Below, piece after piece: positions 6,455 to 13,399 of a stretch of 23,442 nucleotides of DNA (positions are counted from its first letter, which is position 1; every line of letters begins with the position of its first letter). Made by a program: the position numbers and the translations under genes. The DNA is from a virus, in the IMG/VR virus record IMGVR_UViG_3300041583_000337, positions 1 to 23,442 of that record, one strand, 5' to 3'. The notes below the pieces were generated by a model that saw nothing but the letters and a program-made list of their open reading frames with translations, made no database searches and had not been told where the DNA came from.

Positions 6455-6952
6455 CTAGATCGTGCAAGTGCTGTGCAGCACACGCTTGGCCGCGAGATAG
6501 GCTTGATGGGCTTCTTCCGGCGTATTGAAGTTCCCAAGGTTCTTGTTCATGCCGTTGGTCTGAATAGCGGCTCTCCACTTCCCTTGGTTGTAGTAAGCGC
6601 CGAGAAGGCCGGATCGACTCCCGGCCTGAGCGCGCTTCTGATTCTGCAAGTTCGACGCCTTAGATACGTCACGAAGGTTCTCGATCCTGTTGTCGCGGCG
6701 GTTGCCGTTAATGTGGTCAACCTCACCAGCAGGAAACTGGCCTTTAACGTAAAGCCAGGCGAGCCTGTGCACCCCGTAGGTTTTCATGTCAACACGGGCT
6801 CGAACGTAGCCTTCTTGGTCGACGGTCCCGCAAACTTGCCCAACGGCAATTCCCGGCCCAGGCTTCTTTCGGGTGAAGACGCCGGTTTCCGGGTCGTAGT
6901 GCAAAAGCTCTTGGATGCGCGCTTGTGTGATTGTAGAATTGGCCTTAGCCAT
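6455..6952 (-). CDS. HNH homing endonuclease with AP2 DNA-binding domain
   Basis: 165-residue endonuclease and the only gene on the - strand. The HNH core runs from His62-Arg63 (GVHRLAWLYVKGQ) through VDHINGNRRDNRIENLR (Asp79, His80, Asn82, Asp87-Asn88, Asn92) to SNLQNQ. A C-terminal AP2-type domain follows at about residues 115-160 (GLLGAYYNQGKWRAAI, LGNFNTPEEAHQAY, AKRVLH). This HNH-AP2 pairing is typical of phage homing enzymes that cut an uninterrupted allele and are copied into it by repair. The start at 6952 is chosen because AAGGA (6961-6965, - strand) lies 8 nt upstream; the frame remains open further up to 7153 but that part overlaps the start of the downstream gene. An extended -10-like TGTTAAAAT sits at 7023-7031. 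It lies exactly in the gap between the halves of a virion gene. Confidence 0.93.
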   Translation of the reverse strand: MAKANSTITQARIQELLHYDPETGVFTRKKPGPGIAVGQVCGTVDQEGYVRARVDMKTYGVHRLAWLYVKGQFPAGEVDHINGNRRDNRIENLRDVSKASNLQNQKRAQAGSRSGLLGAYYNQGKWRAAIQTNGMNKNLGNFNTPEEAHQAYLAAKRVLHSTCTI

Positions 6953-6960
6953 GCTGTTGT

Positions 6961-6965
6961 TCCTT
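6961..6965 (-). promoter_or_regulatory. Ribosome binding site of the HNH gene
   Basis: AAGGA on the - strand, 8 nt before the ATG at 6952. It decides for the 165-residue form over longer in-frame starts. Confidence 0.6.
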
Positions 6966-7022
6966 GTAAACAATGGTTTGGTCAGAAGCCTGCAAGTGTT
7001 GATAGCGCTTGTGGGCTTCGCT

Positions 7023-7031
7023 ATTTTAACA
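7023..7031 (-). promoter_or_regulatory. Possible extended -10 promoter of the HNH gene
   Basis: On the - strand TGTTAAAAT matches an extended -10 element (TGn plus a TATAAT-like hexamer), about 70 nt upstream of the HNH start, in the most AT-rich part of the insert. No good -35 is seen, which extended -10 promoters can do without. An opposite-strand gene in a late operon needs its own promoter, which favours this reading. Confidence 0.35.
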
Positions 7032-7045
7032 TAGGAGTTGCTTAA

Positions 7046-7636
7046 ATGGCTGAACCAACACGCTATCAATCGGTGGTATCGCCTACAAGCTACGACACAG
7101 CCGGATTCCCGTTCAAAGCGACATTCAACGGCACAAACCAATGGATGCAGCACGCCGCGCTGGATATGACAAGCACGGATGAGGTGACGCTTTGGGCGAG
7201 TTTGTTGAAGGAGAGTGATGCTGCTCTCGGTATTTTGTACGAAATAAGCACTGCGGCGTCGGCTCTTGATATTTCAGTTAACGCCCCTGGTGGAGCTAAC
7301 AATTCCAGTCTTAGGGCTAACACCCGAGTGGGTGGGCCGGTGTCTGACATAACTGTCACCGGATACCCCGCGCCTGCCAAAGCTGGGCTAATTGCAAGAT
7401 TCAAAGTGTCAACCGATACTGTCAACCTGTCAATTGCAGGCGTACAAGTAGGCAGCAACGGCACAGATCAGGGCACAGGAAATTACCGCAATAACCCTGG
7501 GTGGATCGGCGCAAGAACAGGCACATCGCTGTTCTTCAAAGGCGAAATCTTCGAGCTTGGCATTGCCGGGCGCGTCATCACAGACGGCCAACTGCAAAGC
7601 CTCAACGCACGCATGACACGGAGCGCCAAGATATGA
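7046..7636 (+). pseudogene. C-terminal half of the split protein: concanavalin/LamG-like domain
   Basis: 196 residues, a beta-sandwich lectin-like domain: YQSVVSPTSYDTAGFPFKATFNGTNQWM at the front (seen in pieces from residue 7), then DEVTLWASL, LIARFKVSTDTVNLSIAG and the closing FFKGEIFELGIAGRVITDGQLQSLNARM typical of LamG domains in phage proteins. In relatives this domain continues from a QLEL-type strand in the same chain, which here ends at 6452 upstream of the HNH gene. It now has its own ATG with AGGAG (7033-7037) 8 nt upstream, so it may be translated as a separate subunit that could still pair with the upstream half. Reading frame is shifted relative to the upstream half (insert length 2 modulo 3). 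Its stop overlaps the next start (ATGA). Confidence 0.72.
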
Positions 7637-10007: not shown

Positions 10008-11006
10008 ATGCACATGGACATTTTCAACGACGACGCTTTCAGCGTGGTCTCCCTCACCAAGGCCATCGAAGACATGCCTTCGGTGCCCGGCCGAATCGGC
10101 CAGCTTGGCCTGTTCACCGAAGAGGCTATCTCGACCACCTCGGTGAGTATCGAGAAGCAAGGCAACGCGCTGACCCTGGTGGGCTCCGCACCCCGGGGTT
10201 CGGCTGGCCAGACCGCTGCGCGCGAGAAGCGCCAGATGCTGACCCTCAACTGCATCCACCTGCCACAGTACGACAGCGTCAACGCCGATGAGATCCAGAA
10301 CGTCCGCGCCTTTGGCAGCGAGACCGATGTGGAGACCATCCAGCGCGTGACCAACAAGCGCTTGACCCGCATGCGTCGCGACCTCGACGTGACCCTGGAA
10401 TTCCAGCGCATGGGCGCCATCAAGGGCATCGTGCTGGACTCCGACGGCACAACCGTGCTGGAGAACCTGCACACCCGCTTCGGCACCACGCCTGCCACCA
10501 AGAACATGATCTTGGGCACGGCCGGCACCAACATCAAGCAGAAAGTGGTCGAGGCCAAGCGCCAGATGCGCGACGCCCTGGGCGGCCTGTCCATCAGCGG
10601 TTACCGCGCGATGTGCTCCACGACGTTCTTCGACGCGCTGGTGGCCCATGCCAAAGTTGAAGCTGCGTACGACCGCTGGATGAACGGCGAGTTCCTGCGC
10701 TCCGACCAGACCGAACTGGGCTTCTACTTCGCAGGCGTCTTCTGGGAAGAGTACGACGGCTCGGTGGGTGCGCAGGAGTTCATCGCGCCAGGCACCGCGC
10801 AGATGATCCCGGAGGGCGTGCCCGACCTGTTCGTGACGCACTTCGCGCCAGCCGACTACATGGAGACGGTCAACACGATGGGCCAGGCGTACTACGCCAA
10901 GCAGTGGGCCAAGGACGGCAACAAGGGCATCCACATCGAGTCGCAGTCCAACCCGATCCACATCTGCACCCGTCCCCAGGTGCCGATCACCCTGTTGGCA
11001 GCCTAA
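10008..11006 (+). CDS. Major capsid protein, lambda gpE family
   Basis: 332 residues (lambda gpE 341). It forms the icosahedral shell in an HK97-like fold. Family marks: the N-terminal MDIFNDDAFSVVSLTKAIE, VPGRIGQLGLF, a KRQMLTLNCIHLPQYDSV strand, IQNVRAFG and the long helix QRVTNKRLTRMRRDLDVTLE; later GYRAMCSTTFFDALVAH and the C-terminal VPDLFVTHFAPADYMETVNTMG. AGGAG at 9996-10000 lies 7 nt before the ATG at 10008; an ATG two codons further on is an alternative. The stop TAA shares its last A with the next ATG, and two hairpins including a strong terminator follow within 70 nt, which fits the need for a high dose of this protein relative to downstream genes. Confidence 0.96.
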   Translation: MHMDIFNDDAFSVVSLTKAIEDMPSVPGRIGQLGLFTEEAISTTSVSIEKQGNALTLVGSAPRGSAGQTAAREKRQMLTLNCIHLPQYDSVNADEIQNVRAFGSETDVETIQRVTNKRLTRMRRDLDVTLEFQRMGAIKGIVLDSDGTTVLENLHTRFGTTPATKNMILGTAGTNIKQKVVEAKRQMRDALGGLSISGYRAMCSTTFFDALVAHAKVEAAYDRWMNGEFLRSDQTELGFYFAGVFWEEYDGSVGAQEFIAPGTAQMIPEGVPDLFVTHFAPADYMETVNTMGQAYYAKQWAKDGNKGIHIESQSNPIHICTRPQVPITLLAA

Positions 11007-11308
11007 TGCAACGCGCCTTCGGGCGCCTTGCGAAAAGCGTCTTGCGCCACCTCGGTCAAGACGCTTTTTTGCTCTCAGGCGCAAACACCACGCCCTGCCG
11101 GGTCAACCTCGAGTACGGGGTGCAGACCTCTGGCCCGTTCAACGACGCGGTGCTTGAGCGCACGATCGCAAGCTTCGACCTGGGCGTGGTGGACCCGAAG
11201 ATCGGCGACGTGCTGAACCACCCCGACGGCACCTTCAAGCTCGACGGCAAGCTGCAGGACGCGGGCTACTACACCCGGTTCACGGTGCAGCCCACCACAC
11301 GGCCATGA
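11006..11308 (+). CDS. Head-tail attachment protein, lambda FII-like
   Basis: 100 residues; lambda gpFII is 117. In lambda this protein completes the head connector and gives the tail its docking surface. The sequence (GRLAKSVLRHLGQDAFL, RVNLEYGVQTSG, IASFDLGVVDPKIGDVL, LQDAGYYTRFTVQP) has the small beta-barrel character and the YxxxRFxVQP-like ending of this group, and its place between capsid and gpZ-like genes fits. The ATG at 11006 uses the last A of the capsid stop (TAATG), so translation would depend on reinitiation; no Shine-Dalgarno is seen. Notably, codons 3-22 of this gene are a terminator-like hairpin with a T run. The N-terminal helix it encodes looks like genuine protein sequence, so the start is kept; a later start cannot be excluded. 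Confidence 0.75.
   Translation: MQRAFGRLAKSVLRHLGQDAFLLSGANTTPCRVNLEYGVQTSGPFNDAVLERTIASFDLGVVDPKIGDVLNHPDGTFKLDGKLQDAGYYTRFTVQPTTRP
11008..11031 (+). other. UUCG-capped hairpin at capsid gene end
   Basis: GCAACGCGCC (11008-11017) pairs with GGCGCCTTGC (11022-11031) with one C-C mismatch around a TTCG loop closed by C-G, the very stable tetraloop type. It begins 2 nt after the capsid stop codon and directly precedes the terminator at 11033-11070. It may protect the capsid mRNA 3' end. Confidence 0.6.
11033..11070 (+). terminator. Intrinsic terminator after the major capsid gene
   Basis: AAAAGCGTCTTG (11033-11044) pairs perfectly with CAAGACGCTTTT (11057-11068) around a 12-nt loop and ends in a run of six T (11065-11070). 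This is a textbook rho-independent structure. It lies inside codons 10-22 of the next gene, so it must be leaky, antiterminated or disrupted by ribosomes. The four A at the left foot could give weak activity on the - strand as well. Confidence 0.85.
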
Positions 11309-13374: not shown

Positions 13375-13399
13375 GTGGGCGCTCGCGCCCACTTTTTTT
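13375..13399 (+). terminator. Intrinsic terminator between tail tube and tape measure genes
   Basis: GTGGGCG (13375-13381) pairs perfectly with CGCCCAC (13386-13392) around loop CTCG, followed at once by seven T (13393-13399). It lies 29 nt after the tail-tube stop and 13 nt before the tape-measure start. It should lower expression of the tape measure and tip genes relative to the tube protein. Confidence 0.92.

Follow-up and report, generated by a model that had tools for sequence, protein, structure and literature searches.

A terminator-like hairpin encoded in the first codons of the head-tail connector gene that follows a phage capsid gene

We propose, with a probability of about 0.7, that the first 22 codons of the head-tail connector gene of this virus contain a post-capsid intrinsic terminator, similar to T-phi of T7, that lowers transcription of the genes downstream. 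The evidence consists of a stem and a U-tract, their conservation and covariation, a strand bias among related junctions and a swap with hairpins in noncoding gaps, all of which can be read directly from the sequences.

The window, by which we mean the whole stretch of DNA that was analysed, is a 23.4-kb virus record (23,442 nt) and is itself a fragment. The features around the capsid-connector junction are collected in Table 1. The very start of the record, positions 1 to 423, holds a long tandem array of CTGGTGCTGTGGT-like units, which may be genuine or may have arisen in assembly, and an HNH endonuclease ORF (PF13392, E = 1e-17) is found in the structural region at positions 6458 to 7153 on the minus strand, opposite to the late-operon ORFs.

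Table 1. Coordinates of the capsid and connector genes and of the terminator-like elements in the window
Feature	Position	Strand	Basis or remark
Major capsid protein gene, lambda gpE type	10008..11006	+	Phage_cap_E, PF03864, E = 6e-102; gene upstream of the putative terminator
TAATG, overlap of capsid stop and connector start	11004..11008	+	No convincing Shine-Dalgarno, SD energy -1.8 kcal/mol
FII-like head-tail connector/stopper gene, 100 aa	11006..11308	+	AlphaFold, Foldseek, PF05354 in relatives, PHROG_9610
Hairpin 1, UUCG loop, over codons 1-9	11008..11031	+	-14.0 kcal/mol, fold z -2.9
Putative terminator stem-loop, 12-bp stem and 12-nt loop	11033..11068	+	Fold, synonymous randomisation, covariation
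Putative terminator U-tract, codons GCT TTT TTG	11065..11070	+	Rare codons here, wobble-T excess across relatives
Second intrinsic terminator-like site	13376..13399	+	GTGGGCGCTCGCGCCCAC then T run; sequence GTGGGCGCTCGCGCCCACTTTTTTT

A first-pass annotation of the window had reported a perfect 12-bp stem ending in a run of six T's, preceded by a UUCG hairpin, and both elements were confirmed at the same coordinates. The left arm of the stem, AAAAGCGTCTTG (11033-11044), is the exact reverse complement of the right arm, CAAGACGCTTTT (11057-11068), and together with the T run (TTTTTT) the stem spans connector codons 10 to 22. When folded in isolation, 11033-11070 reaches -19.2 kcal/mol with a z-score of -6.2 against dinucleotide shuffles, and the region 10990-11080 still gives a fold z of -4.6. 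Since four of the 12 pairs join A's to U's of the T run, the part of the stem closed by G/C pairs corresponds to 11037-11064, and the 12-nt loop contains an inner helix of 3 bp. The element has the form of an intrinsic (Rho-independent) terminator, with a G/C-rich stem followed directly by a U-tract, and a search of Rfam returned no RNA-family match at E≤1. Hairpin 1 folds as had been claimed, with the pairing GCAA-c-GCGCC-UUCG-GGCGC-c-UUGC. The T run is composed of codons that are rare in this phage, with usages of 0.08 for GCT, 0.20 for TTT and 0.14 for TTG.

The gene that hosts this element had been described as FII-like, and our data agree with this assignment. Matches of the connector ORF to PHROGs are weak (PHROG_9610, E = 4e-7), but 10 of 37 relatives match the head-tail attachment family Phage_attach (PF05354) at E≤0.01, and an AlphaFold model built with 37 sequences has a mean pLDDT of 87.6, residues 1-10 being less confident with a mean of 60. 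The best Foldseek matches of this model are neck chains of lambda (8k37) and the neck of phage Chi, and the match to the lambda neck chain 8k37_M (E = 4e-5, TM 0.69) identifies a gpFII-type fold. The model places a helix at residues 2-16 and a strand at residues 18-24, and the terminator codons encode the end of helix 1, a turn (G17) and the start of strand 1. We also considered a true connector start 3' of the T run and rejected it, given that relatives conserve the N-terminal helix and strand, both of which are also present in the model. In the record of Curvibacter phage PCA1, the connector is annotated from an internal ATG (L400 1191-1240), and an upstream GTG just past the capsid stop would yield the conserved N-terminal helix.

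Relatives of this junction were gathered through capsid searches, which yielded 11 loci from genome contigs and several hundred from viral ones. Removal of identical junctions left 273 loci, of which 123 have a connector homologue adjoining the capsid gene, and the tested set comprised 59 lineages with a mutual identity below 80% and a connector start within 30 nt of the capsid stop. For each connector, the 45 nt around the motif (R/S)-(V/I)-L-A-x-L-G-(E/Q)-D-A were compared with 300 recodings that leave both the protein and the locus-specific codon usage unchanged. Against this null, in which codon usage comes from few genes per locus, the fold at the motif had a median z of -2.80 (below -2 in 38 lineages and below -3 in 24), compared to a median of -0.38 and only 1.3% below -3 for the 982 windows of the same capsid and connector genes that served as controls. 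The stem is thus stronger in relatives than codon choice predicts. Hairpin 1 is weakly conserved in the same kind of test, with a median z of -1.14 and p≤0.05 in 13 of 45 relatives.

Selection beyond the protein code extends to the U-tract. Numbering codons from the conserved glycine, the wobble position of codon G+4 (TTT in the window) is T in 27 of 45 distinct hairpin-bearing lineages, where 6.0 were expected, and the first base of codon G+5, usually Leu, is T in 25 of them against 8.7 expected. Across connector lineages the T run is, to judge from these codons, made of rare synonymous choices. Programmed frameshifting at T TTT TTG was rejected on inspection, since a T run is conserved (CTTTTG, ATTTTG, GTTTTG) but the heptamer is not, and since the hairpin lies upstream of the heptamer.

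Could the resemblance to a terminator be accidental, the peptide (R/S)-(V/I)-L-A-x-L-G-E-D-A being self-complementary by chance? The peptide alone does yield a fair stem, and for the 45-nt fold of this window on its own, synonymous recoding with the codon usage of this phage gives only p 0.045. However, six T's in the tail have a p of 0.002 under the same null, fold and T run occurred jointly in 0 of 6,000 trials, and the synonymous excess among relatives, the covariation and the loss of the stem in gap-bearing homologues, both described below, make such a by-product extremely improbable.

A stem of at least 9 bp is present in 48 of the 59 lineages, and 30 of these also have at least four T's in the next seven bases, the U-tract being short or interrupted in some members (L012, L020 and L002). 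A stem more widely conserved than a strong U-tract is what could be expected of an element that mainly stabilises or processes the mRNA 3' end, shielding the capsid message from decay, and in lambda, too, the hairpin that follows E has just a weak T run. We nevertheless regard this explanation as unlikely, as the T run directly past the stem is under strong synonymous selection and would be unneeded for a simple exonuclease block.

The putative terminator is also found within the connector gene of two cultured phages, Curvibacter phage PCA1, with a perfect 16-bp stem and a short T run, and Acidovorax phage ACF1, with an 11+3-bp stem followed by TTTTG. No clear hairpin was seen in the Pseudomonas-type connector group. 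Rhizobiaceae-like phages (L005-L008, L056-L072) carry long in-gene hairpins at the start of a connector with an unrelated-looking N-terminus; their stems reach a z of -7.1 (L057), which is the best of eight windows and hence weaker evidence, and they may possibly represent a second origin of the embedded terminator.

The two arms of the stem have changed together. Among 36 distinct ungapped sequences, both sides changed in 15 of 17 stem pairs, and the covariation score was 0.516 compared to 0.205 for shuffled alignments and ≤0.17 in slid registers; as the sequences are related, the shuffle counts are not probabilities, whereas the slid control retains the relatedness. The pairing reaches the protein. 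Residues G-5 and G+2 are mainly V-D, I-D, L-E, G-P and A-G, which are sense-antisense codon partners, and their mutual information is 1.17 against 0.46 for the null, with clearly raised values at the other two tested paired-codon pairs (these statistics ignore the tree) and a weak signal or none at neighbouring unpaired residue positions. The predicted RNA hairpin therefore visibly constrains which amino acids the connector uses there, and the double coding constraint suggested by the first-pass annotation is not only real but extends to amino acids. Taken with the synonymous-site results for stem and U-tract, the covariation argues that the element is terminator-like and selected as such.

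The position of the element, directly 3' of the major capsid gene on the sense strand, is shared. In 178 distinct junctions, 42 terminator-like sites fall on the + strand in the 0-100 nt past the capsid stop and three on the minus strand, and the + strand peak is ∼25-fold, other + strand bins usually holding zero to four sites and two holding 7 and 10. These counts are lower bounds because the scan was ungapped and misses bulged sites such as that of the window itself, which has a one-base bulge. A smaller + strand peak of 10 sites lies ∼1000-1100 nt before the capsid stop, around the junction preceding the capsid gene.

Where a noncoding gap is available, the hairpin is found in the gap. In 17 gap-bearing homologues, defined by a best-scoring start more than 30 nt past the capsid stop, most have a strong gap hairpin of about 10 bp with a short T run (no clear one was seen for L105, L106 and L388 in the stretch folded), and there is no excess structure at the connector motif, with z from about -1 to +1.4 and a single exception, L087, at -2.4. 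At several gap-bearing loci (L091, L099, L103, L116-L122, L230 and L336), the outer part of the post-capsid hairpin, 0-60 nt past the capsid stop, pairs the connector Shine-Dalgarno (GGAG) with the bases right past that stop, and translational coupling would be expected from such pairing. In the PAK_P3 record, a putative terminator is annotated 3' of the capsid gene; the record also carries an RNA-seq-based annotation of an antisense RNA across the capsid 3' end and the putative terminator (L405 1368-2050).

Actual termination, its efficiency and its purpose in gene dosage are what we infer from these features, as follows. RNA polymerase, presumably that of the host, would leave the capsid gene and make the stem-loop and U-tract at 11033-11070, and the stem, just outside the stretch covered by a ribosome that has halted at the capsid stop codon, would be free to fold. 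A share of polymerases would then stop at ∼11070, producing many capsid mRNAs, and the remaining ones would continue into the genes for the connector, neck and tail. Since the connector gene spans the terminator, the connector itself would need this readthrough, and since its start overlaps the capsid stop, leaving no noncoding room, the terminator would have to be written in codons and be retained by selection through synonymous choice and paired amino acid changes. A second terminator past the major tail protein gene would repeat this logic. The site at 13376-13399 lies in the gap that separates the major tail protein gene from the tape measure gene, similar sites are seen at this junction in PCA1, in ACF1 and in most of the relatives where it could be read, and its placement would fit a dosage role for high-copy proteins. 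The attenuation of post-capsid genes put forward in the first-pass annotation would thus suit both the position of the element and this matching site.

Work in E. coli has shown that a ribosome at a stop codon no longer blocks a terminator (tR2) once the two are more than ∼27 nt apart, and that a terminator within the first 100 bp of an ORF retains most of its efficiency, with translation of the ORF costing ∼10% (PMC4824070). From the distance and these early-ORF data, the terminator described here should act on polymerase leaving the capsid gene. The points that count against this reading include the short or interrupted U-tracts of some members and the Pseudomonas-type connector group mentioned above. 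In addition, an mRNA ending at the T run would lack the stop codon of the connector ORF, which is a cost, and processive antitermination of late transcription, if it occurs as it does in lambda, would let polymerase pass the terminator.

The junction also invites explanations based on translation. In hairpin-bearing lineages the connector start either overlaps the capsid stop or lies close beside it, with an offset of -8 to +19 nt, and connector starts with an embedded terminator lack a Shine-Dalgarno (median -1.5 kcal/mol compared to -6.4 for gap-bearing homologues and -6.6 for capsid genes), so that connector initiation is probably coupled to capsid translation. The missing Shine-Dalgarno may simply reflect missing space, and it would also limit the ribosomes that enter non-stop mRNAs, a known cost of such an arrangement. 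The first-pass annotation went further and proposed a gate, in which ribosomes reinitiating at TAATG override the nascent stem and make connector transcription dependent on capsid translation. Terminator hairpins can indeed be blocked by ribosomes (PMC4824070). However, the stem begins a median of 31 nt past the capsid stop, beyond the ∼27-nt ribosome shadow (in the window, the G/C-closed stem begins 30 nt past it, or 26 nt when the A-tract is counted), the published effect of a translating ORF over an early terminator is only ∼10%, and no pause site or sensor was identified; nor was an alternative (antiterminator) fold found among the minimum-energy folds inspected. A gate of this kind is therefore rather unlikely, a little more so than the mRNA stabiliser considered above. 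The combined picture, of a terminator that steers the neck-protein sequence across dozens of lineages together with a translation-sensitive valve at TAATG that sets the capsid-to-neck ratio, we hold only as a tentative idea. Alternatively, the structure could act on translation itself, folding over the first codons to restrain connector synthesis. Hairpin 1 covers the start, and the absence of a Shine-Dalgarno is compatible with such restraint, but hairpin 1 is the poorly conserved one, and hairpin 2 begins ∼27 nt into the gene, with a T run under selection behind it, which makes a translational role improbable.

Transcription terminators have been described downstream of phage capsid genes, and when a terminator-like sequence turns up within a coding region it is usually regarded as an accident that has to be suppressed. 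In the present case, a terminator-like signal is conserved inside a structural gene, and its base-pair compensation can be seen in the protein as the residue pairs V-D, I-D, L-E and G-P, offering a clean natural experiment on the extent to which protein sequence can be shaped by an RNA signal. There is a practical warning as well, as replacing codons of such genes by synonyms could upset the gene dosage of the phage. Whether terminators work in early codons can be tested directly in the cultured phages. We found no description of an embedded post-capsid terminator in a literature search, which missed most subscription papers.

Leader-peptide attenuators such as pyrBI and trp also place a terminator in or near a short translated ORF where ribosome position can matter; those leaders are dispensable and stalling on them is regulated, whereas the product of the ORF here is structural, and neither a sensor nor, among the minimum-energy folds inspected, an alternative fold was seen. 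The head-tail joining protein gpFII of lambda (PF05354) has the same fold as the protein of the terminator-hosting gene, but in lambda FII follows FI, and after E there is just a short noncoding hairpin, with a UUCG loop and a weak T run between E and FI (L412 1160-1190). Transcript 3' ends inside ORFs of E. coli show that termination or processing occurs within coding sequence, although the available part of that report does not describe them as a deeply conserved terminator sharing codons with a conserved fold (PMC7815308). Within the same Phage_cap_E family, PAK_P3, C2-10_Ab02, AmM-1 and the L091/L103 group likewise have a terminator-like hairpin after the capsid gene, in a noncoding spacer rather than embedded in codons. 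The closest functional parallel we propose is with T7, where T-phi directly follows capsid gene 10 and genes 11 and 12 depend on readthrough, and with the counterpart after the capsid gene of LUZ100 (PMC5592923, PMC10134795). In all three cases the terminator, or putative terminator, sits right past the major capsid gene; in the T7-like phages it lies between genes and is met by a phage RNA polymerase, whereas here it would lie in the codons of the next gene and presumably be met by the RNA polymerase of the host.
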